The notes below the pieces were generated by a model that did no database searches, had not been told where the DNA came from, and saw only the letters and a list, made by a program, of their open reading frames with translations. From NCBI RefSeq assembly GCF_964355755.1, contig NC_092671.1, positions 5,343,001 to 5,407,000 on the forward strand: a stretch of 64,000 bases of DNA, read 5' to 3'. The translations under genes were made by a program, and so were the position numbers. This stretch comes from Antedon mediterranea. Its lineage: Eukaryota; Echinodermata; Crinoidea; Comatulida; Antedonidae. The stretch's first letter is position 1. Each line of letters begins with the position of its first letter. Below, in pieces: positions 13,655 to 46,000 of this stretch.

Positions 13655-16600
13655 ATGTCAGCTCCCATAGCTAAAGAAACAAGACCGGAACTTTTTGCGG
13701 TATGTATGCGTGGTTTTTTATCTTGTTTTATATAGTAATGCAACGTAAAAGTTTGGGTGGTTATTATTACAGTTAGCCATTTTTTAAGCTCACGAGGCGG
13801 CCGCGCGGCATGAGGTAAATCTTCTACATTTACACTGTCGTGTACTGTACTCTGTAGCCTGTGTGTGTGAACCACCGGTCATATGGAATGGCCGGACAGT
13901 GGCCTGTGGAGGGCATTTATGCGTATAAAGTGGTAAACCCCTAAAGTGGCTAAATAGAAGTCTATTATTATTAATGTGTCAGTTTTCCAATTAGGCCTAG
14001 GCCCTATATAGTAAATAAAATAATGCATTTAATTTAATATTTTCTGTAGAGTTCTGAGAATACACACCAGAGAGAGAGAGAGAGAGAGAGAGATCCGAGT
14101 GAAGTGGGCCTAGCAGTACGATTTTTAGAGAAATGTCCAATAATAATGTTGTAATGACCTCATAATAATGCATCTTCATGACTACACTGCAGTATTTTTG
14201 CATTATTTGTTTAACAACCCTGTACCTGATATTTTTAGGGATGGGGATACATACCAGACAAAGTAAAAAAGGCACAAAAGAAGGTGGAGGCGTCACCGTA
14301 TGATGTTGATGCTTGGAGTGTACTGCTACGAGAAGCTGCGGTAAGAAACTTTAATTTAATTTCAGGTTATTTTGATGTTTAGAACATTTGTTTAATTCAA
14401 TGGAAACTTATAAATATAAAATCCAAAAAAATAAAAGATATATTTACAGGCAGAGATTCAAACCTGCAACCTTCTGCTTGATTTGCAGTTGTCCTGACCA
14501 TTAGACCACTAAAGTGTTTCATGGTATCATTCAGATATAGTGACGCCTCATAGTCGTACAGCAAAACAACACTTTAGATCTCAAGCAAGGACAATTAAAC
14601 GCACACGCAACAGAGATCAAATTGATGCACTATCATCATTCAGTATATTCACAGAGGGATCTATACATACAAATTTACATTAACAATCACAAAACAAATA
14701 GCCAATAATCACTATGATTGAAAAGAGCCCTGTTAAGTGCGCTATGTCGTGATGTTGATAAACGATGAGGAAATGAGCAACAGTTACAAAAATTAATTGC
14801 AGAAACATTACACAGTCACAACATAGTTTGGTAGAGAGTTTTAATAATTATCCTAGCTAATGATTTCTTGTTTTTATTTTTCAACAGAATCAACCAGTTG
14901 ATAAAGCAAGACCACTGTATGAACTGCTTGTATCCACGTTCCCTAACTCTGGAAGATACTGGAAAATATACACTGATCAAGAGGTTACTAGCAATCTTTA
15001 TTTTACTTTCTTGCTAATAATTCAATTAATATTTAGGATTTACAGTGAAACTTGAAGACAGAAATGTATAAGCATGCTAGATTTAATTGTGTGTGAACCA
15101 CCTTGCTTAATATAAACCACCAAGCTCAAATGTTTGCCGTTTTAGGCCCTTCCATATGACTTAATTTATATATCACCAGGTTTGCCTTTATAATGCCTTC
15201 TATTTGACTTAATTTACTGTAAATTACCCAGCTAAATATTTACCATAATACTTTTTTAGGCCCTTTCATCTTGCTTTTAAATTACCCAGCCTAAATCTTT
15301 ACCGTTTTAGGCGCTTACTCCTGGCTTAATTTAAAGGACCAATTCAGTATTGAAAAAAAAAAGTGAAAATATTAAATTCCTTCAATTCTGTATGTAATAA
15401 CCATTAAACAAAATAAGATTTTATGTGCGCTACATCTCAAATGTTACGACAATGGGCCCAGTATTGACTTTTATAACCCTTTGTTGTTAACTAAATTATT
15501 TGTGCAATATATTATCTATAATAAATATTGTTTATAATATTTCTACCTTCAATGTTTCACTTTTGTGTGGTTCATCATATTGTTTTCAGTTCATGATTAC
15601 TATTATTTTATGCATATATGGCTGTCACAGAGTTAGTATGCAAAAAATGTTCATGCTTAAAGTCTGTGATAACCGACATTCACACAGTAAATGAGTCTTA
15701 CGACTGATTTGTGTACTGCGTTTTCTTTGTTGTCTCTTTTTATTGGACGGTTTTTATTGAGTTTGAGTAGGAGAGAGAAATTGAGCTAATTAGTGAGATG
15801 TTTATATGGATTTGGATATGAGTGAGTGAAAACAGTCCTGTAGAAAAACAAAACAATAACAACAGATAATAATAAACTGAACAGTACAACACTTTATGGA
15901 TTCACCTAACCACAACAGTTGATCAAGAACATGAGCTACTGTATATAAATGTTTATTAAAACATTGTTTTATACTGCAATATACTAATTAAAATTCATTA
16001 TTGAAAAAATTCAAATTTTAAAAATTGGAATGGAAGGAAAAAAGGCCATAAAAAACCGTGTATAATAAATGATTGTATGAAACCAGTTTGGTAAATTAAT
16101 TCATGGAATAAATTATGGAAATTTTTTGTATGTTTGTACAGTACAAAAATGACAATGTTGTATTTAATATCAGAAGGTAACTCATTGTCATAATTAAGCA
16201 TTGTTTGCTCCAGGACACAACTCAAGAACATACTACTCTACTTTAATTTAATTTTGTCCTATCTTCCTTTTTCTAGTGAAAACAATACATACCATTCACG
16301 GTTCACATTACACATTAATTACTACTGACAACTGCATAAATTAACACACTTGCAAAACCTCAACAAATCATGAATTACAATGACAGATGTTTTTTTGATA
16401 CAACAATATAGTATAAGATAATTAAGTGTCTATACAGTACAGTACAACTTATCAAAATTCAGGGATTATTTCCGCCACTTTAGCATATTATAGCTAAATG
16501 CTACAATACACGCTTACAGTGTTGCTACAGTATGCATTTATCAAATGGCAGCAAATAACATACTCTAAATTTAGATTAATCGGTAGTTATTGCTTATTAA

Positions 16601-19600
16601 GTTCTTTAATGAAAATGTTCTCTGAAATTTGTGTTTCATTCAATATAGCCTACATACAGTATTTCCATGTCATTGTCAGTAATTTACGGAACCTATTTCA
16701 TACAATACAACTTGCAGAATATGTTATACAATTTGCGGAAATTTTGTTTTGAATATAAAAACAACTTACAGAACTTTTTTTTCTATAAAAAATGCACTAC
16801 AAAACATGTGTTTTTCATACAATTTACAGAGCTTTCTTCATTTGTAATGTACATGATGTGTTTTCCATACAAAGTGCACACATGCCTTGTATTTCTCATA
16901 CAAAACTAGAATTTCAATATATACAACAATTTACAAAACTTGTGTTTTTCATTTCATACAGAACTTTACAGGGCTTGTTTTCTGTACAGAACTTTGTTTT
17001 TTTTTTCATACAAACCTACATTACCAAACTTCTTACATTTTCTTAGAATGTACAGATGTTGTGTACAGAAACGAAGATGTTGAGTACTTTTTGAAAATAA
17101 ATTCAGAAAGACACTTTGGATTGAGATTTGGTTTTAGTTCTCTATGCACCGTGGTTAGAATAGTAGGTGAGCTGGGGATAGGGAGTGAGCTTTAATTTTA
17201 GATTTTGGTGAGGTTTGAGACATTGAACAATTTTGATTGAGTTTTGAATATATTGTTGAGCTGCTGTGTCAATTTTATAAGAAAGTGATATTGAGACTAC
17301 TGTAAAATTGGGGAGGTGGTGTGAAAGTGACTTGTTAAATCTTTATTACTGTAAGGGTATCCTTTCTTTTGATATGGCCAAAATCCATTTGTACAATTTT
17401 GGAATACAATGTCTAAAACAACCATCTAATCAAAAATAAAATTGTCATTTAAAGAAATCAAAAGTACAGTAAACTGTACAGTGTTATTGTTAAATTTTTG
17501 TTCCGGCTGTTCAAATTTTAAATGTACATATATATAATAAAAAAAATTAATCTGTAACTCTGATAGAGTGTTCTAGATGTCATATGATAAATAAATGCCG
17601 ATTCAAAATAAGCGGGCCTTCAAGTTTTTAATGTTACAGTATTAATGCTGTATTACAAAAAGTATTAGTGTGCATGTGAAAGTAATGCAATTGGGAGAAT
17701 AGTGTATGCAATGAGGAGACGAAGAATTAACTGTGTGAAATACTGTACAGTGTTTTGTCTTCTACTAACTAACATGCATTTTTTTTCAGCCACAAAATAA
17801 AAGTATTTCTTTTATTTTAAATAAACAGTTGCTGCCATTTATAATGTGATATTATGGTATATAAAATATTATTTACAGTTACATACTTTTGAAAAAGCAT
17901 GCTCTCTTTTAGACAATAGTAGAGTTAACTGAAATTAATTGTATTCATTTTGCACATGTGCTAATCGTAAATTTAATTTTAATATCTTCGTCAACAGCAG
18001 TGTACGCATTGATATCATAACTATGCACAGTTTAATTTGATAATATTCGTAAAGCATTTAATTGTTTTTAATATAAAGACATTAGGGTTTAATTATCAGA
18101 TTAAAGGTGTTTTGAGAATAATTAAAGAAAATGCTCAAATGACTTGTTGTTAAGTGGTAAAAAAGTTTGTGTGTGTTATTAAAACTATTGTACAATATTT
18201 GAAGCTTTGTGATTGATTTTAGTGTATTATTAGCACCAGATCATTTTAGTCATTTACACAAAGCTGTGTGAGGTAAGTACCACAGACAATAACAATACAT
18301 TGAATAAATAAATGGTAATTTAATGTGTTATGAATTTGATTGGTCTTTGGAGAATGCACTATTCTTTGTGAAAGGGAACTCCGGAAAAAGCCAACACTTG
18401 AATAAAACGACCTAACAATGGACAGTACCATTGTAAAGTAGGGGTATATACATGTGAATTTTAGTAAACGCCAGGCCCAACTATGTTTAGTTGCCTATAC
18501 TACTGAGAAAGTAATTAGGTGGTTCGAAATCCAGCGGTCTTTTACTACATGCATGCGAAAGATCATAGAGCAAAGTAGATATAATGTAACCAACGTCTGT
18601 TCATGATCATAAACCTTACTTAATTGAACTTCTCTTTGGTGGAAGCAATCACAAAATTGTTTCCCAGTTGTGTTACAGTAGTCTCAATCGGGACTGCTGG
18701 GTGTAAACACTTTTTTTCTTGGTGGGTATTCGCCAATTATTGTACTGTATATTTACGTATTTTATTTTATTAGTACAAACGAATGTCACCATTACATATT
18801 CATATAATTTTTTGAACACTTGGTCTGTGTCAACTCCGTACGTACTGTACAGTAGTTCCATTCAGATTTGAAAAGAAAGTGTTTGATGATACACCCATTT
18901 TTCTTTGACAATAGTCTGATTGACTACGTGTCAACCCGCCCTGGAGTGAGGTGTTCTACCAGGAAAGAATGAAATTACATACAGTACGTAATTTCACTCT
19001 TCCCTGGTTCTGCTGTGTTGTATCTCTTTGTTTAAATTGTCTATTCATTGACAATCAGGACAAAAGCATATGGAGCATGCGTGATTTGTAGTTCAAATCT
19101 CCCGCTTCTGTTATTTTTCTTTTTAAGAAGGTACTTTTCACGTCCTTCTGTCTCTGTCTTGGAATTTGATAAAATCACTCTTCCCTGGTTCTGCTGTATA
19201 GTATCTCTTTGTTTAAATTGTCTATGCATTGACAATCCGAAAAAAGGCATGCGTGATTTGTGGTTCAAATATCACGCTTTTTTTCTTTTTTTTAACAACG
19301 ATCCTTTCTATGATAATCTGGAACAAATCACGTGCTTCTTGCTCTGTTTTAGAATTTGATAAAATCATATTTGTTAGCGTGTAGGCCTATGGTACACTTG
19401 TCAGTATTGTGATTTGAGGTTCAAAGGTCCCGCTTCTTTATGTTTTCCATAATAATATAATCTGGCACAAATCACGTGCTTCTGTCTGTCTAAAAATGTT
19501 ATAAAATCATAATTGTTAGCCTGCGTGTTAGGCCTACGGTACACGTGTCAGAATTGTGATTTGTGGTTCAAATTTCCCGCTTGTTCAAGTACCTCTTAAG

Positions 19601-22600
19601 TACGGGTGCGAAAAAATTGTGTGAAACATACATTTACCGTACCGTATGTTTGACAAAATCAAATAATGTTAGCTGCTTGTACTGTACATTTATTTATTTA
19701 TTAACATTTTCTTGTTCTTGTGCCCGATTCAAAGTTCAAATCTGTTTTGGATTCGGATGGAATCGTATGAAGTTGTTAGCTTGTATTGTAATGGAAATAT
19801 CATTATCGTCAGTGTTATTTTGCGTGATTTCAAGTTCCCACTGCTTTGGTTTTTCTCCTTTAAACTCGATCCTTCTCACGCTGTCTTGTTCACAAGGTAG
19901 TTTATTGAAAGATAATATACACTAACGAGTAAAGCAGCATTGTTAAAATAAAGCACAGTAGGAGCCCCGGTATGTATGTGTACATAACTATGTTTTCATA
20001 ATGATGTACACTACTGCATGTTAGACGGTTGGCAATGTTCCCGATCACACTTGCATAATTCCACTAGTAAACTGTAGTGCCTACTACAATGTAAAGGTTT
20101 GCTCAAAGGAAAGAAAATTAGGCCGATTTATTGAAATTCTTTGCCCCGAATACGAATATTTTAGTCTTCGACGACTGATTTAGGCCTGATCTACTTCCAT
20201 TTTCATTATTACAGAATAAATTTAGTTACATTTTCTGTGAAGCTCAGTTCCACTGTATCTCCAGTATGTTAGTACCGATAGTATATCTCCTCCGGTAGAC
20301 CTACTCTTCTCATTGCAAAGACTCTTCCACGAAGCTTTTTCATTTTAGAACGAAGCTTAAACCTAATCTAAAATATTGATTGAGTCCGTTTTGTTTGTTG
20401 TCGTTTTTAAATTGCAAAGTTTGTTGTGGATCTTTTCAACTATGTACTGTAGTTCCCTCATCTGTTAAACATTACCTTTGTTTAGATCATAGAGGAATAA
20501 TTCCTTCATGTTTAGACCAAATTAAAACGAATGAAATCTGATTTGTTGTCAGTCACAAAAACCGTGTCAGTTATAGTAGGCCTAATAAAATGTCATAATC
20601 GGGCTTTGTAGTTGTATCTAATATAAAGATTCTGTATACGGTACTTTTATGTACATTTCTATGTACTGTACTTTCATTGAAAATTAAAAGCCCCTTTAGA
20701 GAGAACGAACCTACTTTTTATTATGATTTTGGCACATTTAGTAATTCACAATTGTGTAAAATTATTATGTAGGCCTATACATTTATGTTCTTCCACACGT
20801 TTCACGATCAATTAGATGTGACAACCTCTGTCATAGTTGAAGTATCTAAGTCAACATGTGTTCGCCCTACTTGTTTTCAGCGTGTCAGACGGCACCTGTG
20901 TTCTTTATGACAAAATATATTCTTATCAGTTGCTGAAATTAAAATTGGTTTGAACTTAAGTTAAGCCGTTACTTAGAATACCAATTCCACCAGATTCTTC
21001 CTACTGTATCTTGCTAGATGTTTTACGTATCATAGGATACATCCAGCATACAACATCACATGTGTTTCACATTATCTATTTTTAACATTTTACTGATGTT
21101 AAATATGCCAGAATTAATTTTAGTATTTCTTCATAGAGTCATTGGTTTGTGTACCCTTTTTTGGTAAAAAAAAACCCCAATCTTCCACCATGTCCATCGG
21201 GAGAAAACATCACAACGAATGCCTTCAAGGATGCAACACACTAGGGCAATAACGATCGACGATATATATAGATAAATATGCATTTTTCCTACATAACAGA
21301 AATCCAAAAAGTTTGCATCCTACATATTATAACCATTTATGATGTCTGATAAAAATAATATTTTTTTTTAAAATTCAATCAAAATGACGGCATAATTAGT
21401 AAGAGCAAAAATATCGCGACGATAAAACTTTTTAGATTTCTGTTTTTAGTAGGAAAAATGCACATTTATCGTCGATCGTTAGCGTCCTAGTGTAAATAGA
21501 CCTTTATCCCGTCATTACTGGTGATCTCAATGGTCAATGTTCAGTCTACCGAGTCCTACTCTGCCAAAACAGTCAAATTAATTAGTGTACAGCAAGATAA
21601 AAGAGGCATAACTAATAACTAAATAAAACATTTTGGCTTGAAAAAAGATCATACACCGTTAAATACATTTAACAAGCTTTCGAATTCCTCCATGGTACAG
21701 TACGACGACGGACTAAATTAAGTCATGTTAATGCATGCGTGGACATTGGGTGGGACGGGCGTCCTCAATCAATTCCTCAACAGATATGACACGTTATTTC
21801 TTGGTCCAATGTCTTCATAATCGAAAGCGTTTTATTTATTCTACGTGTATCGTTCTCTTGTTATACTAGGATGCTCCATACAATACTACTTTACAAATAA
21901 AAATATGTCCCTAATCTCCTTTCTTATCTCTCGGAATGGATCACCTGCTTGTCCTACTATTTTGTCCTACTGGTATCTCCATTTAGGTCTTTCTTTTGTC
22001 TCCTGGTGATTGTGTTTTGTTTTTTGATATACTTACGCCACAGTCATCATTTTTACTCTTTTATTCCATTTATTAAGTAATTCCATTTTATCTCTGTCGG
22101 TCTCCTGGTGAGTTTGCGGTCATGCATGTTGGTAGTTCTGCCACAGCCGTGAATTTGAACTCTTTTATTTTATTTATCCGGTACCACCAGTGATCTCCTT
22201 TTATTCTGGTGATTTTGAGTTATTTGTTAATAGTTTCGCCGCCGCCATCATTTTTTCTTTCGCTTCATTTATCAGGTATCACCATTTGTTCTCCGTTTTT
22301 CCTGGTGATTTTGCGTTGCGTGTTGGTAGATCCGTCGCAGTCATTTTGTTCTCTCGCTCCACTCGTCCGATATCCTTACTGTGTCTCCTGATTAGTTTGC
22401 GTGCGTGTTTACAGTTAATCTCTTTCGCTCCATTTATCAGTCATAACCCCGCCCCCCTCCCCACCCAACCAGGTATCCCCCATTTAGTCTCCCGGTGATT
22501 TTTGTGTTGCGTGTTGGTAGTTCCACCATGTCCCATTAATTTGAGCTCTTGCGCACTCTAATATCAAATATCTTAATTGTAGTTCTCTGTTGTATATCCT

Positions 22601-25600
22601 GGTTATTTTGCATTGTGTGTGTCGTTTACCGCAGCCGGCCATAAATGTTAGCACTGTACTTTCGCTCCATTATCCAAGTACAGTATCCCCATCCATTTGG
22701 TCTTTGCCGTGTTTCTTGATAAGTTTGCGTTTCTTGCATGTTCCGTATATCTTCCACCGCGTTCATATCTATTTGAACTCTTTCGTTCCATTTACCAAGT
22801 ATCCCGTGATGATAAGTTTTGTGTTGGAGTTCCGCCGCAGCCATCAATCGAGCTCTAATAGCTTTCGCTCTATTTATTGGAATACACATTTGATCTCTGT
22901 TATATCTGCTAATGATTTTACGTTCCATGTTCATCAATATTGAGCTCTTTCGCTATATTTATTAGGTAGGCCATTCCCTTTGGTTTCTTCTGTTTTGTCA
23001 TGCGTTGCATTTTTGCATTTCCGCGTTTTAGTCACATTGCCTAGTCTTACTTATCAATGTGTCAGTTGGTTGAGCTTTAATTCCATTTTTGGTTCTTCTA
23101 AAAACCGAGATCTCGGTAATGTTTACGCATCCGCAGTTTCTAGATAATGTTTCTTGTGTCGTTGTTTTTTCCCAAGATTGCTGTTCTTTTCCTATACATC
23201 TATTTTAGTTTTACTCTAGTTCCGTCACTAGTATTAATGATGTGTTTTCTTTGTGTTTAACCCGTTGTTAAATGCTAGGTAATTTAAACAGAAGAGCGGT
23301 AAACGATAACCGGAAATTTATAGAATATATATTTATATTTCGTATGACCATTTACTCAAAACGCCGCTCATGATAGATGTAGGAACGTGGACACGCTGGT
23401 TTTCCGGTTTCCGTTACCGCTCGTCTGTGTAAATTCGTGTGCGCCTCATATATACTGTACATTTGTTAAATACAAACTCAGACACTCCTTATTTATAATC
23501 TTGTTCCGTTATACCACAACCATACGTTCAATATTGACGATAAGATAATATAGAATCGGCAAAGCGCGGATGGATCCAGACGTGACGGAAGCGCCGATCT
23601 CTCTCCAATCACCATTTCCTGCCCATAATAATATCTTTATTGTGTATCAACTTAAATAAATATCTGATTGTTAGTAATATTATTTTCAATATTATAGAGC
23701 TTTAATTTATATACGTATTTCCTTATTCATACTCCTATCCCCTTCCCCTTTTTGTTACTGCCTTAATTGGAATTTCACACCAATATATTTTAAATCGAAG
23801 ATGTGTTCAAACAGAACAATTACCGTACCGATATCAACGGAAAAACAACGTTTCAATCTCTTTTTAATTACATAACGAACCATCCGGGTTACAAAAAAAC
23901 GCAATACGTTATATAGTCCTATGTTGATTGCTGTAATTCGTATAAAAATGTATAAAACAATGTGCATTCCATTTCTTTCATTTACAGATGAGACAAAAGA
24001 ATTATGATCGAGTTGAAAAGGTAAGAGGATAAAATATATTATTTGATACTTCGTTATATTAAACGTCTTTTGAAATCCGTTTCATATTAGTTTATGAATG
24101 AATTAGTTTCTTTTCGGCCTAAAGTCAATTTTAAATTATACAAAATTCATTCATCCATCCATACGGTTTGGAATGCCATTAATATCTAAATTCATACGTT
24201 CGGTATTTCTTACTGACGTAATTCCGTACGTATGTATTTCCGCATGTTCAGAATGTCTGACTGACGTAGTTCCGTGCGTATACGAATTCGCATGTTCAGA
24301 ATGTCTGACTGACGTAATTCCGTACGTATGTAATTCTGCATGTTCAGAATGTCTGACTGACGTAATTCCGTACGTATGTAATTTCGCATGTTCAGAATGT
24401 CTGACTGACGTAATTCCGTACGCATGTATTTCCGCATGTTTGAAGCTCGCAATTTCATACTTTCGGAATACCACGTGTATGTTCGGAATTGCCATTGTTA
24501 TTCTGTACTTAATTTTTATATGTGAATTCAATACGTTTTTAATGAATACGTTCGTCAATCCTAACGTTTGGAATTTCATACGATTGTGATAAAGTATACG
24601 TTTGGAATCCCATTCTTAACGGAATTTCTTACGGTACGGTTGGAATGGAAACATAGGTTGTGCAATAACATACTCCATATAGTTAATTATTTACGTTTGG
24701 AACGATGTGCCATTTGAATCCATACGGTCGAATAGCATGCGTTTGAAACGCTCCGTATTTAACTCCCGACTTTTATAATTCAAAACGTTCATAATCTAGT
24801 TACTTATTACGTCGTCCTACGTATCCTTTCAATTAACACGTATCTTATAATGTCGTTTGACAGTTAAGATTAGATGCCACTTGGACGCAACGCAGAGACG
24901 TAGATGTTACGCTAGAATGCGTTCGTAATATATTATCGAATACCTTTTGTTTCATTTACAGCTTTTCCAGCGTTGCTTAATGAAAGTGTTAAATGCCGAT
25001 CTGTGGAAGTGCTACCTGAGTTATGTCCGTGAAACTAAATGCACTCTGCCGTCGTTTCGCGAGAAGATGGCGCAGGCGTACGATTTCGCGCTCGATAAGA
25101 TGGGGATGGACGTGAATTCATATCAAATATGGCAGGAATATATTACTTTTCTGAAAGGAGTGTAAGTTATTAACAAATTGGTTTGAATTGTTCGTTACCT
25201 TCTAAAAACGTTACTTAAAACAAATCTGTTTGACTTCTTTAAATGCTGTATCTTAACTTTCTTTAGCACTGGTATTACGTTAGTTTTCACGCTCAATACG
25301 ATAAGAACACCAAACGTGTCTCTCATAAACCCTATCTTTCTTCTTTTTAGTCTACTAATTTCGTTGTCTTTTATACGTTTTTCCGAATCGCTGTTTACGT
25401 TCTTCTTTCGTATTTACATCCGTTCATTTTTTCTCCAGTTTTCTTTCTCAATTTGTTTTTTCTTGTATTGCCTTTATTTTCTATTTATACATCCTTCCTT
25501 TTTTTGTTTTTCCTCTTCAGTTTTCTTTCTCAACCATAACGTTTTTTCTTGTTTTGCCCTTTCCTTTTTCTATATATACATTCTTCCTTTTTTTAATTAT

Positions 25601-28600
25601 TTGTTTTTCTTCTTCAGTTTTCTTTCTCAACCATAACGTTTTTTCTTGTTTTGCCCTTTCCTTTTTCTATTTATATATTCTTCCTTTTTTTCTTTCTTTG
25701 TTTTACTTCTTCAGTTTTCTTTCTCAACCATAACGGTTTTTTCTTGTATTGCCGTTTCGTTTTATATTTATACATCCTTCCTTTTTTTCATTCTTTGTTT
25801 TTCCTCTCTAGTTTTCTTTTCAACCATAACGTTTTTTTTTCTTGTATTGCCCTTTCATTTTTTCTATTTATACATCCTTCCTTTTCTTCATTCTTTGTTT
25901 TTCATGACGTTTTTTTTCTTGTGTTGCCTTTTATTTTATATTTATATAGGCCTAAATCCTTCCTGAGTTTCTTTCTCAATCATAATGTTGTTTCCCTTTT
26001 ATTCACTTGCTTCTTCCTTTTATTGCTTAGTTTTTAAATATTTCTTCTATTTGTCTTCTGTCATTTTTTCCTTTAATTTTTCTCCTTTAATTTTTGTAAT
26101 TTATATCTACTTTACTAATTCGTTTTGCAGTGAAGCTGTAGGATCCTATGCAGAGAACCAGCGTATCACAGCAGTGCGGAGAGTGTACCAGAGGGGTATT
26201 GTTAACCCTATGATCAACATTGATGCACTATGGAAAGACTATGTACAGTATGAAAATGTAAGAACAGTACACAATGTAAAGGGTGCTCAACCCTCTATAA
26301 GCATAGGCAGATCAATTTACGCACAACCCCAGCTAAAAAAACCCAGTAACATTACCCAAAGTGTAACAGTTAAGATTCTTTGGTAGTTGACTCATAATCA
26401 ACTTTTGTCAATCAAGTAATCATTATTTGTCACATTCCTTTGAAGCTAATAAAGGGGAAATATAGGTATTAACACTATAGCCAACTCCTATTCAGTAGAC
26501 AACTCTATTAACGTTCTGGGGTCCCGATGTTGTCCCTTTAATAGGTGTTTTTATGTATTTGTAAGATTGTGTTCATTTCAGAATTTCATATATTATCTGT
26601 ACCTAGACTTTTTCACACCATTAATTGTTGAAAGATCAATTATTTTGTAGAGTATCAATCCAATCATTGCCAAAAAGTTGTTGGAGGACAGGAACCGAGA
26701 CTATCAGAATGCCAGAAGAGTTGCGAAGGTATTTTTTTTCAGAATGATAGAAATCTATTATTATTTCCATGATTTTTATAGGGATTGCTGTTTATTGCAT
26801 GCATTTTACTGATTTATTTTGTGCTTGTTGTGAGAATGTATTTACTATTTTTGCATTTTTTTTCCTGTGATTTCTTTTTTAAACAGGAATTTGAAGCAAA
26901 CACGAAAGGTTTGAATCGTAACAACCCTTCTGTACCACCAATGGGAACACCTGAAGAAGCAAAACAAGTTGAGCTGTGGAAAAGTTATATTGCGTTTGAA
27001 AAGAGTAACCCACTTCGCACTGAAGATCAAACTCTCATCACAAAAAGAGGTAATATGTCCTTCTGATAGGCCCACCTTTTACATGGACATACCTTTTGGC
27101 ATAAGGCCATTCTTGGACATGGGTCTACTTAAAATGTAGGCCCAGCTTGGACATCAGCAATTTCATTAGTGTATAAAGTATCTAATACAGACACTCCAAT
27201 TTTTGCCAAATAATTTGAAGTTTACCAATTCATTTTATTTAAAATAATATATGATTTTGTATTCCCAATAATTGTATTAAATAATCTAGAAGCTCAGTCA
27301 TTAGGATCATAAAAAACAAGGTTGGATTAACATAAAATTAAAGAATCAATAGCATAGGAAAACAAGATGAAAACAGAGGCGGAGGTGCACACCAACTGTC
27401 ACATATGTATTAAATAATAATTTTTCAATACTTTGTTTTTAGTAATGTTTGCATATGAACAGACGTTACTTTGTCTTGGACATCATCCTGATATTTGGTA
27501 TGAGGCTGCCCTCTATCTAGAAAATTCAAGCAAGATATTTGCAGAGAAAGGGGTAAGCAAAATGAAATTGAGGAAGCTATTACAATTATTTTGTAGTTAA
27601 GAATTCTGTTTAAGAATATAATATTGATGTATATATATATTATTCATTTACATAGATGTATAGAAAAAAAATTATAATTTAAATTTATTTTTTACAGGAT
27701 ATCAACAATGCAAAAGTGTTCAGTGACGAAGCAGCTGCTATATATGAAAGAGCTATTACCACACTTCTAAAGAACAATATGTTACTCTACTTTGCATATG
27801 CAGATTTTGAAGAGGTATGCAAATTATCCACCTGTAGTTACTGTTAAATGTTTTATAAAAAATAATACAATAAAATGTTTAATATAGTATAGATGTTAAA
27901 ACAATTTGTTTTAATTCAAGCAACTTGTAACAACAATTTTATTTATTATTTAGGCAAGGATGAAGTATGATAAAGTTCACAATATCTACAAACGATTTTT
28001 GACTATTGAAGAAATTGACCCTACACTGGTATGTTCTACATTTATTCTCTTGCTCTTAGATGTCATCACTTGTTTTTTTTTTATTTATTTACTACAGTAG
28101 AACTGATAGACACTTCTTATAAGCGGACACCTCCATAATGAACACTTATCTAAAATCCAGTTTCTGGTGGATCTTCCCACTATTTTCTGTATCAAAATCG
28201 TATACATTTGTAACAAAATAAAAACTAGTATGTATTATCAAATTATTGTAGGCATACATTCAGTATATGAAGTTTGGCCGCAGAGCTGAAGGAATTAAGT
28301 CTGCACGTGGCATATTCAAGAAGGCAAGAGAGGACTCGCGCTCACAGTACCATGTCTATGCAGCTGCAGCTCTGATGGAATACTACTGCAGTAAAGTGAG
28401 TTCTTAGTTACAGTGGTCATGTCATGTTTTAGATCTGTGTTCTCAAAACAGATAACCTTGTCTAATTTTCTAAATTTAAGACCAGTATCTTCTGGTTTTG
28501 TAAGGTTTCTGCAGTTGAAGAAGAGTTGACTATTAATATAAAGCTGCATTTACACTTGTTTTGTTGAAACAGAACAGAAGATGACGCTGTTTTATTAAAT

Positions 28601-31600
28601 AATTAAATTAAATGGCTCCATCTTTTCATAGAATTAAGTGTTTTGTAACAAATTTCATAATTTTAATAAATTTCTGCATGATTCATTTGATATTACATTT
28701 ATTTTGCAAGGTGTGTTATATTCTAAGATATTATAAATACTTAAATATTGAAAAATTATATTTCAGGATTCTAAGGTGGCTTTCAAGATTTTTGAGCTAG
28801 GACTTAAGAAATATGGGCACGTCCCTGAGTATGTGCTTGCCTATTTGGAGTATCTTTCACATTTAAATGGTAGGTGTAAGAAATAATAAGGCCTACCTAA
28901 ATTAATTGTATAAATAAATAAAGCGCTTTGTACGAAAAATTAAACTAAAACTAGCGAAACTAAACTTCAATTGGTTGATCTTAGTATTTTATCAATATAT
29001 GCTTAGAAATAATAATATTACCTCAGCAATTAAATAAAAATAAATAATACTTTTTTAGGGTAAGGTATGAATGATAGTCTACTGTGAGCTATTTGTGTTC
29101 ACCTGATTCCCCACCCCAGCTAGAAGTTGCTTGCTTACTTTCCCTACCACAACTGCACAACTTTAAGTCATTTGCTAATTTCCTAATCAATCTTTTTTTA
29201 TATAGAGGATAATAACACTAGAGTTTTATTTGAGAGGGTGCTAACATCAGGGTCATTACCAATGGACAAATCTTGGTGAGTAATAGTAAAAAAAAGTTCT
29301 AGGCTGGAGAATAAAATTGTATGCAAATGTGAAGAGTTTTTTTACAGTGGGAGATATTTTTAATTTATACTGAGTGAAATAAGGTGGGTAAAGGTACAGA
29401 AGTGGAACACATTAGTTGTATTGACTTCCATGACATGACATGATAAATAGTTTTTGGATTCACAATTTAAAGATAAAATTATAACCTGTCATCACCAAGA
29501 ATAAAAGGTCAATCTTCATGCTTGATTGCTTTTGTTGAGCTTTGATAATGTTAGAGTTAGCTCTCTAGTTGTATAATTAATCTATGGTATTTGAAAGTTG
29601 TATTTTAGTTATTGAAATATTTTGTTTGTTTTATATCTAGTGAGATCTGGTTACGGTTTGAAGACTTTGAGTCGACGTGTGGTGACCTATCTAGTATTTT
29701 AAAAGTAGAGCGAAGACGGTTTCAAAACTTTACAGACGTACGTTTATTTGTCTTTTTATTGTGACACTGCTTTTTCAAGCTGCATTGCATTGCATTCAAA
29801 TTCTAACTTTAGTGAGAACATAGCTTTAATTGAAATATGTAGAATCCTTGGTTTGGAGGAAACTTTTCTTTGAAAATATATATTTAACACTATAGCCAAC
29901 CCCTTTCAGCTAACACCCCTATGATGCAAACACTTTGTTGGGTCCTAATGGTGTTCCTTTAATAGTGGCTCAATCTTTTTGCCTTGAATTGTCTTAGTAC
30001 AGTAATAAATTATTAATATTATCACAAAATATGTTGTGGCTATACATACAATTAGTCATGTACAGTTTTTAAAATAAACCATTTCTAATTATTATTATTT
30101 TACAGGATTTTAAGGACAAGGAAACTGCACTGTTAATTGATAGATATCGATATCTTGACCTTTACCCTTGTACTTCAAGTGAATTAAAGGCTCTTGGTTA
30201 CAGGGTAAGAATAGCTATATTTACATGCTATATTTTCTTTTATTTTCAGTATTTAAAAAGTCTCAAATGTAAAAAAGAGTAATTTTACTACAAAAATTAA
30301 AGTAATTGAGTTTTCTTTTTTGGATTTTCTTTTTCTTCAGTCAAAGTGTTTATTATTGTGATTATTAATTAATATTTACATATATTTTTTACGTCGTCTA
30401 GGATTTAATAAAAAGAAGCGCCATTACACAAGTCACGACACACCACAAGAACCCAGATGCATCTTCATCAGAGAGAACAGAAGAATTAACAGATGAAAGG
30501 AAAAAGCCAGAATACCCAAAGCCAGACTTAGCACAAATGCTACCGTTCAAACCCAAAGCCTTTCCTCGTGAGTATAAAATATTGTTTCTATTACATATCT
30601 ATCTATTATATGTATCTGAATTTTTAAGATTACCTAATCAATATTCATAACTTTCCTAATGAATAGTCAACATACATAAATATTATTTGTATTTCGATTA
30701 TAATTAATCAATATTCGGGTCATTCCATGTCAAATCACCCAAAAAAAACCAAAATTTACACCTCACCATCTCAGATTTTGATCAAATTTGAAATATATGG
30801 TAATCACTATGAAAAATTCCAAAATTTCAAATTTTATTCAAATCGGACAAACCGTTAAAAAGTTACGGGCAATTTAAAATGGCCGAAAATCGTTAAAAAG
30901 AGCAAAATATCGCGAGACCGTCGATTTTAAAACGTCAATATTTTCAAAACTACTAGTCCGATTTTAATGAAACAAGTAACAAATTAATGGCCATTTAAGG
31001 AGGATTCCAAATCTTTAATCAGAATTAACTCTTATAAATTTCCCTTAAAATGTTCTATTGACCTATAATTTGACCTTTGCCATGACCCTGTGGAACAAAA
31101 ATTATAATGTTAAAATATTAATTTTTATATTTTCACACTTCTTGCCTGTAAAATGTTAGCTAAAGCTAAGATGTCTTTTGTACCAGTTCTATTTTATAGG
31201 CTTTCAAAATTGCACATCAAACAAATTCTATGTGTAAAACAGTGTTTAACATGTTTAATCAGTTATATTTTACATTGCCTCTATAAATGTTTTATTGAAA
31301 GATATCATTCCTGTTGAAAGTAGTCAATATTGCATCTTCTTCTTGTTTTGATATACTGTAAATTCCTACTTGATGATGATGTTAGTGATGGTGCATCAAT
31401 AAGACATAGGTCACTTGATTCTTCAATCCATCAGCTTTATCTGGCCAATGGACATTTTTTGAAGGACCAGGAGGATGCATAAATGATTTAAAGTACTGTT
31501 TAGTCACCAAATTCAGCTGACATGACATCCAGCACCATCCCAATCCACCACACACCATCATACAAACACGCCACAAAATGATTTTGAGAAATTGCATATT

Positions 31601-34025
31601 GTGGAACTTCTCGTGCAAATGTAGTAGATGTTGATGGGCAGCTTGTTACGTTTACTTTCCTTGGTTCATCTTTTTGTGCACTTGTATACCATAAGAGAAC
31701 CATCTTGTTGCGGTACAAATCTGTGCAGTTGAAGGGTGCCTTTAATGGTTTTGGCTTCAGAAAATCGAGATTTCAGTCGAGCTACAGATTCTTTAATTTC
31801 TTCGGATGAAATTTCAATTTATTCCACATTTATTTAGTCATCAATTACAACATAATTGCAATACAACTGATAACAAGGATCCTGCATAAAAAAGCTGTAG
31901 CTTTGTTTTTTTGTAGGACCCTTTTACATAGAACAATATAAGTAAATAGAACTAAATAGGTAAAGCAGTCATTTCCCATAAAATGAAAATGAAAACATGA
32001 AAAAAAATGTTACCAGGAATGTTTTCAACACAGAAATTAAACATGTCTATTGATGTTAGTAGTTGATTATGATAGAAAATTTAGACTCTTTTTGGTTACT
32101 AGTCGTTGTACTGTCCCCCCAATTCCATCGCATGCACTTTTCCCATGTGATGTGGCGAAAAAGTTCCACTCGGCATTTAAATCAAAATCATGTTTGTGAT
32201 TGCATAGATTGATAAAATTGGACTTATTTTTATATTGACCTGCACATCCATCGGTAAAGTAGTGAACCTTCTTTATTTCGTAAAATTTACCCTTCAAATG
32301 ATTTAGAACAACTTTTTGGAAAGTCCACACTGTTGTTGTTGAGTGTATTGCAATTAGATAAATTTCCATCCACCTCACATCTGTATGCTACAAATGGATG
32401 CAGTGTTGCCTGTTTGTTTTTCCAGTGAAAGCTTTTTATTTCATCTTGAATGACAAAAGCGTAATTTTCAGCAAAATCATCTTGGAGTACTATCTCCTGC
32501 AAAGGATAAATGACCCCTGAGCTTCAGCAACAGTAACTGCTGCCTTGTTAGCTTCATTTGGTCAGCTAGCTCATCACCGCATTCTTCAATAGGTTTTTCA
32601 CTGTTATTAATGTTGTGCGGTCTGTTGTTACCCATTGCTTGTTAGTACAGTATTCTACTTCATCAATATCCTCCTGGTATATCAATTAACACATAGATTG
32701 ATACAAAACACAAACCCAGACAACATGATATAACTATATCTTCTAAATGAGGTAAAAGACATCTTAGCATTTTACATATGTCATAAACACCACTTTATAG
32801 TTTAAAAAAAAAATAATGACATTAAAAAAATATACGTTCCACAAGGTCAAACCGGGGGTCATTTTATATATCAAAAGGTCAAATATATTTTAAGACATTC
32901 TACTACAATTCTGATAACAAATTTGGAATATTTGGGGCATTTCCTTTCCCATACTGTTTATTTTTTTTTAATTGGACTTGTAGTTCTTGTTTTATGGTCT
33001 TTTGAAAATTGGCGGCCGCACCCATTTTTACGGTTTTTTGCGTTTTTTTCACAATTTGTCCAGCCCGTAACTTTTAATCCGTTTTTCTGAATTACGTAAA
33101 ATTTTATATTTAAGCTTTTTTTAGGCTAATAACCACCTGTACCAATTTTCATTAAAATCCGAGTCAGTAGGGTGTTTACCATTGGGTGATCTGACATGGA
33201 ATGACCCATTCATATATATATGCTAATGTATATTCATCAACTTATATAGGCTATAGGCCTTAGTTGAGAAAGTTATGAAGTAGAGCATCTAAGACTTACA
33301 TATTTTTCAGTGAGAATAATCCATTTTATATCCGTTTTTTCATACTCATGAATATTCATATAATTTTTTTTAGCTATTGGTGCTCATATTGTTCCAGGAG
33401 GTGTCTTTCCTCCCCCTCCTGCAGCTTCATATGTTATGTCTCTTCTACCGCCACCAACATCCTTTAATGTAAGTATCTTGAATTGTTGATATATATGTAC
33501 ATGGCTCCTTTTATGCTGCAAATCAGCTAATCATATGCCCATTTGAAGCCACATTCCTAGGTCAGTTACAGCTATTGCAAGCAAACAAAACAGGCAAGAT
33601 GCACTGGTGTTTGTTTGCAACATATCAATTTGCTGTATTAATGTATTTCGAACATTTTCATTTTTAGGGACCATTTGTCAGAGTGGATGATTTAATGCGA
33701 ATGATTTCAGATTGTCGCTTAAAAGAACGTAAGTATATTATTCATAAACTAAAAGTTTTATTTTAAGAATTTAATTAGATAATGGAATATTCCACTTGCT
33801 TTAGAGTTTTAAAAAACGACTGTTTAACATCCTTTTTCAGCTGCACCTCAGCAGTTATCAAACGGCCAACCTAAAGACGCAACTCAAGAGGCGGATGCGA
33901 AAAAGAAAAGGAAACGTGATGGAGGAGAAAACCAAAATGATGAATCTGATGAAGACGAACACGTAACACAAGCCGCACCAGTTCACGATATTTACCGTAG
34001 CAGACAACAAAAACGAGTTAAATAA
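13655..34025 (+). CDS. CSTF3: Cleavage stimulation factor subunit 3 (CstF-77), 20 coding exons, 721 aa
   Basis: CstF-77 is the scaffold of the CstF complex. It binds CstF-50 and CstF-64 and acts in nuclear pre-mRNA cleavage and polyadenylation. Coding exons: 13655-13699, 14239-14340, 14888-14983, 23988-24020, 24962-25161, 26131-26257, 26651-26728, 26887-27049, 27443-27552, 27698-27814, 27954-28028, 28252-28395, 28767-28869, 29206-29275, 29641-29737, 30106-30204, 30402-30567, 33374-33468, 33668-33728, 33841-34025. Phase is kept at every junction, giving 721 residues (human 717). HAT repeats fill about residues 16-550, with diagnostic [27 protein letters not shown] and YPKPD. A proline-rich segment, the CstF-64-binding tail, a basic KKKRKR (681-686, likely nuclear signal) and the conserved end [13 protein letters not shown] follow. 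Intron 3 is 9.0 kb with an unusual GTTACT donor. It is convergent with WASHC3. Confidence 0.97.
14069..14092. repeat. (AG)12 microsatellite
   Basis: Pure AG dinucleotide run in CSTF3 intron 1. Confidence 0.95.
14446..14520 (-). repeat. tRNA-derived SINE head or pseudo-tRNA
   Basis: On the minus strand, AGTGGTCTAATGGTCAGGAC resembles box A of Glu/Gly/Cys-type tRNAs, and GGTTTGAATCTC resembles box B at tRNA spacing. The acceptor stem is not paired, so it is not a functional tRNA. It lies in CSTF3 intron 2. Confidence 0.5.
15090..15335. repeat. Degenerate tandem array, units about 65-70 bp
   Basis: Phrases such as TTACCGTTTTAGGCCCTTYC, GACTTAATTTA and AAATTACCCAGC recur three to four times in the same order. 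It lies in CSTF3 intron 3. Confidence 0.55.
15520..15575 (+). promoter_or_regulatory. Candidate intronic poly(A) site of CSTF3
   Basis: AATAAA at 15520-15525 is followed 36 bases later by a GU-rich stretch TTTTGTGTGGTT (15561-15572). It lies about 460 bases after the intron 3 read-through stop. In mammals the same gene uses a poly(A) site in intron 3 to make a short form (recalled family knowledge). Use of this site is inferred. Confidence 0.45.
16660..17050. repeat. Degenerate tandem array, units about 33 bp
   Basis: Variants of TTTTTCATACAATTTACAGA and CTTGTGTTTTTCATACA recur about ten times. Overlapping open frames here are a by-product of the array. Confidence 0.6.
18985..19590. repeat. 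Tandem array, units about 160-180 bp
   Basis: CACTCTTCCCTGGTTCTGCT and TTGTTTAAATTGTCTATKCA occur at about 18998 and again at about 19178. GTGATTTGTGGTTCAAAT followed by CCCGCTTCT occurs four times (about 19080, 19255, 19410, 19557). Weaker remnants continue to about 19870. Confidence 0.75.
21234..21505. mobile_element. MITE family B, copy 1
   Basis: Inverted ends CACTAGGGCAATAACGATCG and its complement near 21500, with internal CGATCGACGATAAA repeats. It shares ends and interior with the copy at 39271-39637. It lies in CSTF3 intron 3. Confidence 0.75.
21910..22990. repeat. Degenerate tandem array, about nine units of 105-115 bp
   Basis: Each unit follows the order TCTCCTGGTGATTTTGCGTT, GCGTGTTGGTAGTTCCRCC, then CTCTTTCGCTCCATTTATCA. 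Units have diverged heavily but the order is kept. Open frames across it are array by-products. It lies in CSTF3 intron 3. Confidence 0.75.
23278..23438. mobile_element. MITE family C, copy 1
   Basis: Inverted ends built on GAGCGGTAAACGATAACCGG (left) and CCGTTACCGCTCGTCTGTG (right). Related to the copy at 40632-40812. It lies in CSTF3 intron 3. Confidence 0.65.
24150..24460. repeat. 48-bp tandem repeat, about five units
   Basis: Unit core: GACGTAATTCCGTACGTATG then CGCATGTTCAGAATGTCTGA. Period is 48 bp from about 24213 to 24440. Because 48 is a multiple of three, long open frames arise on both strands without meaning. Looser relatives of TACGTTTGGAAT continue to about 24840. It lies in CSTF3 intron 4. 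Confidence 0.85.
25430..25985. repeat. Pyrimidine-rich tandem array, units about 100 bp
   Basis: Five to six units each contain CAGTTTTCTTTCTCAACCAT, AACGTTTTTTCTTG and TTTATACATCCTTCC. The array fills CSTF3 intron 5 and stops about 145 bp before exon 6. Long phenylalanine-rich open frames across it are spurious. Confidence 0.8.
26462..26552 (+). repeat. Dispersed repeat (GTCCCTTTAATAG family)
   Basis: Shares TAACACTATAGCCAACYCCT and GTCCCTTTAATAG with 29883-29965. Looser relatives occur at 46015-46120 (inverted), 50882-51060 and 62025-62165. Family identity unknown. It lies in CSTF3 intron 6. Confidence 0.5.
29883..29968 (+). repeat. Dispersed repeat (GTCCCTTTAATAG family), second copy
   Basis: Starts TAACACTATAGCCAACCCCT and ends GTGTTCCTTTAATAG. 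It lies in CSTF3 intron 15. Confidence 0.5.
30717..33207 (-). mobile_element. Decayed 2.5-kb DNA transposon in CSTF3 intron 17
   Basis: The ends are inverted repeats of about 26 bp with one mismatch, each beginning GGGTCATTCCATGTCA. ATTC flanks both sides (30713-30716, 33208-33211), a likely 4-bp target duplication. Subterminal AAAAGTTACGGGC is also inverted. Minus-strand coding remnants fit a known but poorly characterised transposase-like family: [16 protein letters not shown] and [11 protein letters not shown]...SHGK...CDGIGGTV (32502-32067), then a C-terminal module with YDGVWWIG and HPPGPS (31718-31382). Frames are broken by stops and shifts, so it is inactive. The superfamily was not assigned. 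Confidence 0.88.
31382..32502 (-). pseudogene. Transposase-like pseudogene of the intron 17 element
   Basis: Fragments in order on the minus strand are 32502-32287, 32378-32067, 31718-31500 and 31618-31382, each in a different frame from the last. Recognisable blocks are the aspartate-containing [11 protein letters not shown] and [14 protein letters not shown] (possible RNase H-like core, inferred) and a C-terminal W-rich module. At least two frameshifts and a gap break it. Confidence 0.75.
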
Positions 34026-43000: not shown

Positions 43001-46000
43001 TATTGTCATTGATTGATAATTGAATATTCAGTCAAAAAACTAAAGCTCATAGAAAACAATGCCAATTGAAATTATGCTACAGTAAATATAAAAAATTAAT
43101 TTATTTCATAATTTTTGTTACTGGGAAATTGTGTTTCCAAATTTGAAAAATAATAACATATGAAAACATTCCTGAAATTTGTATATAACCATTTCTGAAT
43201 GGTAATGATAACTGTAAATTCATATTTTAATTGTGTTTCATTTATGATTTAAGATTTGCTGGTACTAATTGATATTTAAAGTGTTTTCCATTTACAGTAT
43301 AAACAAAATTCTCGAATATATAATATTTCTGGTTAAATGCTATTCCTACAGTATTTCTTTGTGTCTACTGTCCCTTTAACTGATGATTCAAGTTTATTTT
43401 CATGAATATTCATCTTTGGTGCATTAGTTTACAAATTGTTCTGTTCATGTTTTTGTTCCGTAGTTTTTGCGGCTTCTGATTCAATCATTACTTTAGAAAT
43501 ATATTGACATTCAAGGTTGAAAGGCATTGTTTAGGGCTACAATACTGTCTACAATGAATATACAATATACTGTAGTTTTATAGTTAGTTCATCATTGTTG
43601 TCAATCATTACCTTGGTCTATTCTACAATGGTATTTAAAGCCATAGCTCTTTGAAGGATTGGTTTAATCATCAATAGTACTATACATTTTAAGATATCCT
43701 TATCGTGATTTTATGTTCCCTGAATTTTACATACTTTAGTCATAAATTGATTACATTTCTACTGTTAGACCTACTGAAAATATTACTGCAGCCCTATATA
43801 GCTACAGGATATACAGTACAATACTATATGTAGCTATAGGATGTCAATTTAAGGTCAAACTAGACAGCTTTTGGCCGTATACTATGCATACAATTTAGGC
43901 CGTACTGTAAATGTCATTATGAAGCTGAAGCCCCAGTGGGGTCAATTAAGTTTTCTACTGTAAATAATAGTAACTGTAAATACTAGTAGTATTATTAAAA
44001 AGTTCCACATTCTTATTTATTAAGCTTCCTGGTTTAACGCCTGTAACTTATGTTTGTTGTGAGGTAAATTCCCGATTGATCGTAATCAAAACGGTACTGG
44101 GTATGGTCTACTAGATTTTCTGCTCCCAACCAGTACATCCATTCATAGAAGCCTTGATGAAGCAAGCCTACCTGGTGGTAACCATAGGACGGTTCCGAGA
44201 TAACGACTATACTTCAGCTTTAGTCGATAGAAGATTGAAATATTGTTAGAGATAGAGTATACGATGCTTGATTATGTGTAGATGTATGATTTGTTCTATT
44301 ATCCAAATGATGTTCCGCATATAGGAGATGAAGATAGGCGTGGTTGGGTGTAATGATTTTGTATATTAAATAATTATCCTACACTTTTTTTTTCTAGACC
44401 CATTAATATACAGTATGCCCATATATAGTTATTTTTTTTAGGCAATGTTGTGTATCGATAGTGTGGTTATTTGAATTAGTTACTCTTTCTGGCATATTAG
44501 TGAAATATTTAATGGATTGTGATAAAAATAAAAAGATGAAAAAAAATGTTTGCTAATAAAGTTACTATACTTTATTTTGCTAAACTCAGCAACTTATTAA
44601 TTTTTTTTGATCTACTAGAATTCAGGGATACCTTTTCCCTTTTTGACAAGAAAGGTGACAACAAGATTGAGCGTGGTCAAGTTGGGGAGGTCATCCGTGC
44701 TCTGGGATTAAACCCAACCCAATCGGAAATAAAGAAAAGTATTCAAGAGATCCAAACAGGTTTGTATGAAATACACCTTTAAGCTCTGTCTAAACTATCA
44801 AATTCTATATGACAAAAAATGTGATGTGCCCATATTGTATATAGACATGATGATGTCATATCACTACCATATTTGGGCATATTACTACTATATATATTTG
44901 GGCACATCACACTGTTTTTGTCAAACTAGTTTGATAGTGTCCAGACAGAGCTTTGCATCGGTGACACACATTCATACTGTAAACGCTCATCAAAACCATA
45001 GCAAATACAAACAACACAGGTACAAAATAATAAATAAATATTTTGAAATGAACCAACAGATGGTATTAAAACAACTGACCAAACATATTCAACGGTTTTA
45101 AGGCATGATAAACTCTAGCTAGGCCAGTAGATGACCTTTCATTATAAAAAACACTATAAACATATATTGTATAATGTCTTCCTGTAAGTGCAATCCCGTC
45201 TTGGACACTATTAAGATATATTGTACAACTGACTTGTTAACCGTATTGGTACGATATATTATATATTTTATATAATTTATTAATCTATGAATGTATGACA
45301 TAATTTATATTTCATGTACTACAGTATGACGTTCTTTCTTATTTTTTCAAATTTTAGAGCGAGTATCCTTTGAGGAGTTAATGCCCATCTATCATAGTAT
45401 GCGCAAAAAGATCGACACTGGATCACATGAAGAATTCAGCGAGGGATTACGTGTCTTCGATCGTGATGGCAATGGTTTCATCTCCGCAGCTGAACTCAGA
45501 CATGTCTTGACAAGTCTTGGTAAGATTTTAAAACTTTTTGATAGATATTCAGGCCTTTTCCAGTGCGCTAAAGAACTCTTAAACTACGAAAGCAATAGAG
45601 CCAAAACAAATATCTATGAAATCAGTAGGGTTTGTGTGCATATAAAGTTGCTGGTCACACCAGGAAGGAATTACTGTATAATTCCTCAATGATTAAACTC
45701 AATAACCAAGTGTAAATTTTATATGTTTATCTATTAAGTTCCTATACTGTAGTACTTGTCCTTGGTTTTATGGACTTTCTTACAGCTGTATTATTACATC
45801 AGTAATCCTCAAATTCGTCCTTCCATCCGATAACTTTAATAATAGTGTTCACTGTTTTGAATGAATAGTTAGTTGCTCTGGTAAGTTTTGCTGTTGCTAA
45901 CGGTATCTTCTTTATCTCAGGTGAGAAGCTTAGTGATGATGAGGTCAACGATCTCCTTGTATCTGTTGAAGATTCCCAAGGTCAGGTCAATTATGAAGGT

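Follow-up and report, generated by a model that had tools for sequence, protein, structure and literature searches.

We propose that intron 3 of CSTF3 in the crinoid Antedon mediterranea may act as a switch between splicing and polyadenylation that is homologous to the one in vertebrates, a reading that is the best of those we weighed and that we give about an even chance of being right. The vertebrate CSTF3 intron 3 switch has been established by experiment (Luo et al. 2013, PMC3708835, in which earlier work on the site by Pan et al. 2006 is cited), and the crinoid case resembles it in that the same gene, at the same intron position, has a weak donor and a poly(A) signal followed by a GU-rich element. 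What the crinoid sequence suggests beyond this known case is a candidate pre-vertebrate version in an echinoderm; no intron 3 switch outside vertebrates is reported in the titles and abstracts of the open-access literature that we searched. If the reading is true, one of the clearest cases in which 3'-end processing controls its own factor predates the vertebrates, a poor splice site has persisted in one place through most of the history of animals, and the vertebrate case gains an ancient counterpart for comparison with the fly site, which appears to be convergent.

The crinoid CSTF3 gene and its third intron

The window, that is, the whole stretch of 64,000 nucleotides that was analysed (C2:5343001-5407000 of a 354-Mb genome in 18 contigs), holds a complete CSTF3 gene on its + strand, with 20 coding exons that encode 721 amino acids between the ATG at 13655 and the TAA at 34023-34025. 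The gene model comes from a spliced alignment of human CSTF3 with the window, and its N-terminal two thirds were checked against PDB entry 6uro. There are no internal stops in the joined exons over all 721 residues, the conserved C-terminal end is present, 342 of 446 aligned positions (77%) are identical to human, and the protein matches 6uro_E with an E-value of 3.5e-233 (phmmer); judged by these comparisons, the gene encodes a HAT/Suf protein orthologous to human CSTF3. It also appears to be single-copy, since the Suf profile PF05843, searched against the whole genome, matched only the CSTF3 exons of the window. An Rfam scan of the window gave no matches. Among structures, the tektins of the genome score highest by a clear margin with chains of PDB entry 8snb, a sea urchin sperm doublet (414 bits, next chain 267; 377 bits, next chain 272), in line with an echinoderm or at least an ambulacrarian; mitochondrial COX1 and mir-2 gave no match. 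Past CSTF3, at 45330-45692 on the + strand, is a calmodulin-like EF-hand exon that probably belongs to a downstream gene.

Coding exon 1 (13655-13699) ends at the donor GCG|GTATGT and exon 2 (14239-14340), placed by the spliced alignment to human CSTF3, at GCG|GTAAGA. Exon 3 (14888-14983) ends in ...KIYTDQE, which aligns with human ...KLYIEAE75, and exon 4 (23988-24020) has 33 nt encoding 11 residues. Exons 5-20, stop codon included, occupy 24962-34025, with exon 19 at 33668-33728 and exon 20 at 33841-34022. Two tandem repeats lie in the introns that follow: one of 48 bp in intron 4 (24208-24440; 4.9 copies), with open frames on both strands, and a pyrimidine-rich 97-bp array of about 4 copies in intron 5 (25456-25903).

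Intron 3 (14984-23987, + strand, phase 0) is 9,004 bp long and makes up 44% of the ATG-to-stop span, compared with 43% of the gene region for intron 3 of human CSTF3 (PMC3708835). The first-pass annotation called it the largest of the gene, at 9.0 kb, and this is correct for all 19 CSTF3 introns; it also exceeds every one of the 92 reference introns described below (maximum 5,781 bp). In the alignment to 6uro the intron falls at the human E75|I76 boundary, in phase 0, and this position is fixed by conserved flanks (human KLYIEAE|IKAKNYDKVEK) and by the shortness of exon 4. We take human intron 3 to lie before residue 76, in agreement with the 103-residue length of human isoform 2.

Recent transposons were considered as a cause of the intron's size and rejected, as there are only two short dispersed repeat stretches, about 0.4 kb in total. 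One, at 21238-21510, is a MITE-like element of about 0.25 kb with 30-bp inverted repeats at its ends (87%) and many dispersed copies genome-wide, and the other lies around 17529-17633. No dispersed repeat was matched over 15056-15600. A degenerate tandem repeat with units of about 50 bp ending in CTTAATTTA lies past the weak donor and ahead of the poly(A) signals, at 15113-15333.

Reading on past exon 3 adds 23 codons (14984-15055, + strand) before the TGA at 15053, giving a predicted product of 104 residues, just as had been annotated, next to the 103 residues of human isoform 2. This length had been offered in support of a conserved switch; across the 19 CSTF3 introns, though, read-through would add anything from 1 to 42 codons, and we rejected both the tail and the length as conservation evidence because they are ordinary for the gene and carry little information. 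The 3' splice site of intron 3 (23968-23987, + strand; TCCATTTCTTTCATTTACAG) is at the 65th percentile, in contrast to the very strong acceptor of human intron 3, which is at the 94th (PMC3708835). We do not regard the acceptor as defining for the mechanism, because in the human reporter its effect was minor.

The intron 3 donor

To rank donors we used 92 high-confidence introns of PRPF8, POLR2B, CLTC and SF3B1 from the same genome, found with human protein sequences, which served as alignment guides only, and kept only if the flanking residues agreed well. The intron 3 donor (14981-14989, + strand) reads GAG|GTTACT, with T at +3 and C at +5 both off-consensus. Against this set (n=92) it is a weak site, at the 8.7th percentile by a local matrix built from the same 92 donors and at the 2.2nd by RNAduplex energy with the U1 sequence ACUUACCUG, duplex energy with U1 being a measure also used by Luo et al. 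(PMC3708835). The human intron 3 donor is at the 0.7th percentile by MaxEnt (PMC3708835), a measure other than the two used for the crinoid. Weak donors are not confined to intron 3: that of intron 15 (GAC|GTACGT) is weaker on both measures and, by the matrix, so are those of introns 5 and 17. The exon 4 donor, AAG|GTAAGA, stands at the 92nd percentile.

Is the pyrimidine at +3 the special mark that the first-pass annotation took it to be? It was right that this is the sole +3 pyrimidine among the 19 CSTF3 donors, the others having G (introns 12, 14 and 17) or A (all the rest). Ten of the 92 reference donors have one too, however, which makes +3 alone a weak criterion. The combination with +5 is a better one: 25/92 reference donors lack G at +5, and none of the 92 departs from consensus in both respects. 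The human short isoform may go on with "VT..." past residue 75, in which case the human donor would be GTNACN, with an off-consensus C at +5 as in GTTACT.

Neither of two local features considered alongside the donor proved unusual. A hairpin hiding the site was rejected (5 bp, -1.3 kcal/mol, with accessibility ordinary among the 19 CSTF3 donors), as was an unusual U-rich tract 3' of it that might allow a TIA1-type rescue (17 T in 35, typical of CSTF3). The U1 genes of the genome have the canonical 5' end ACTTACCTG in the six copies that were read, so the mismatch of the donor is not compensated there. At C5:15664856-15752909 the U1 snRNA genes are arrayed head to tail, at least 42 copies being scored, and most repeat units measure about 1.7-1.9 kb.

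Candidate poly(A) signals in intron 3

The main candidate poly(A) signal is the AATAAA at 15520-15525 (+ strand), the first of 19 in intron 3, 536 bases past the donor. At 15561-15572 (+ strand), 36 bases beyond it, is the GU-rich element TTTTGTGTGGTT, a candidate CstF-64 binding site in which 12/12 bases are G or T; the annotation had placed both features correctly. Cleavage would be expected at about 15535-15560. A second, weaker candidate lies at 15389-15408 (+ strand), where UGUAUGUA is followed by AUUAAA at 15403. This AUUAAA, with its two UGUA, is 117 nt upstream of the AATAAA at 15520 and resembles the vertebrate site in its order of UGUA and AUUAAA; there is no UGUA within 100 nt upstream of the AATAAA itself.

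Intron 3 has about twice as many AATAAA as expected, 19 against 9.7 +/- 3.1 under a first-order model, and the hexamer is therefore uninformative by itself. The GU-rich element is another matter. It is better than that behind any other AATAAA in CSTF3, those past the stop codon included, and in about 207 kb of the genome, searched on both strands, an element as good followed only 3/700 AATAAA sites (about 0.4%, the one at 15520 included), by a threshold partly set after that site had been seen.

How much of this could be due to chance? Where the genome is AT-rich, an AATAAA with G and U behind it is expected somewhere, and an ordinary long intron whose donor happens to be rather weak could look like this and have no regulated 3' end; this is the alternative that survives best, although we think it rather unlikely. 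AATAAA was present in 54% of 1,304 sampled windows of 545 bases and was accompanied by a fair GU element in 8%, by a good one in 3.6% and by one like that at 15520 in 0.3%; the first two of these figures favour chance, as do the ordinary read-through length and the reference donors that have a +3 pyrimidine or lack G at +5. Against it, the features come together at the one intron to which the vertebrate work points, and a rough joint estimate of our own (about 0.09 for the donor x 1/19 for the largest intron x 0.004-0.08 for the signal) gives 2e-5 to 4e-4, a figure that assumes independent features and a pre-specified intron and uses thresholds that are partly post hoc.

Comparison with known systems and age of the candidate switch

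In the vertebrate system, use of the intron 3 site tracks the level of CstF-77 and the activity of U1, and the 103-residue product is undetectable (PMC3708835). In reporters, use of the site was suppressed or abolished when the donor was strengthened, fell when the intron was shortened, and dropped about tenfold without the GU element (PMC3708835). Human intron 3 is 33.2 kb long (PMC3708835), against 9.0 kb for its crinoid counterpart, the candidate switch. The vertebrate hexamer is a suboptimal AUUAAA, in the order UGUA-AUUAAA (PMC3708835), whereas the main crinoid hexamer is the stronger AATAAA, and intron 1 is small in the crinoid (539 bp), unlike in vertebrate CSTF3. In weighing the switch we counted in its favour the E75|I76 boundary, the size of the intron, the weak donor, the rarity of the GU element, the canonical U1 copies, the repeat-free interval 15056-15600, the apparently single-copy gene and the experimental basis of the vertebrate mechanism, and against it the AATAAA in place of AUUAAA, the unremarkable acceptor, the small intron 1, the donors of CSTF3 introns 15, 17 and 5 that are as weak or weaker, the weak donor of a long POLR2B intron and the GU threshold chosen once the site had been seen.

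In the mechanism that we envisage, the large intron and a donor that pairs poorly with canonical U1 would delay splicing, and with high CstF activity the nascent transcript would be cut past 15525 before exons 3 and 4 are joined. The short mRNA would encode an N-terminal fragment of 104 residues, probably unstable, and there would be less full-length CstF-77; with low CstF or high U1 activity, intron 3 would be spliced and the full-length protein made. The intron may in this way sense CstF activity in the crinoid too, as the first-pass annotation supposed.

Could a working poly(A) site have arisen independently at the same intron, long early introns being favourable places for such sites? The su(f) gene of Drosophila offers a parallel, for it belongs to the same gene family and has an intronic poly(A) site that lowers the amount of full-length mRNA. 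That site is judged convergent with the vertebrate one, and no such site was found in C. elegans (PMC3708835), both of which favour an independent origin, as does the difference between AATAAA and the vertebrate hexamer (PMC3708835). We nevertheless consider it improbable, because the crinoid and vertebrate genes have in common the same intron and codon boundary, a weak donor and a similar share of gene length, whereas the fly site has neither conserved surroundings nor adjacent exon structure in common with vertebrates (PMC3708835). Its surroundings and exon structure also differ from those of crinoid CSTF3, and the fly short form is without an in-frame stop. Ordinary alternative splicing is a highly improbable explanation: the donor-like CAG|GTTTGC at 15177-15185 (+ strand), downstream of the weak donor, upstream of the poly(A) signal and possibly a cryptic donor or U1 site, outscores the authentic donor (matrix 3.15 vs 1.56), and its use at 15180 would retain the stop at 15053 in an mRNA that would be removed by decay, not polyadenylated, yet this model has no need of a GU-rich element right behind the first AATAAA, and no such vertebrate splice form is described in the literature examined.

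For a switch homologous to that of vertebrates, it is the identical intron position that leads us to infer common ancestry and not independent origin. That the switch is older than vertebrates, as the first-pass annotation proposed, is plausible given the vertebrate-like architecture at the homologous intron, but its appeals to the +3 base and to the product length fail, and so does its use of su(f) as support for antiquity, because the fly site is considered convergent (PMC3708835). Of the reasons originally given for a switch, two are weakened and one is strengthened. That echinoderms and vertebrates inherited the intron 3 switch, weak donor included, from their common ancestor, and that the feedback of 3'-end processing on its own factor at this intron is thus more than 500 million years old, we put forward tentatively, at a little under an even chance.

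A choice between splicing and an intronic poly(A) site is also made in the IgM heavy-chain gene, where the strength of the donor, the size of the intron and CstF-64 all influence it (PMC3708835); unlike in vertebrate CSTF3, the polyadenylation is not autoregulatory there, and the gene is unrelated. Within the crinoid genome, the longest intron of the reference set, the 5,781-bp intron of POLR2B (C4:783000-802000), has the weak donor GAG|GTATAC, and the pairing of a long intron with a weak donor thus arises elsewhere. We know of no switch in this POLR2B intron, and as a second pair of this kind it is of interest for intronic polyadenylation.
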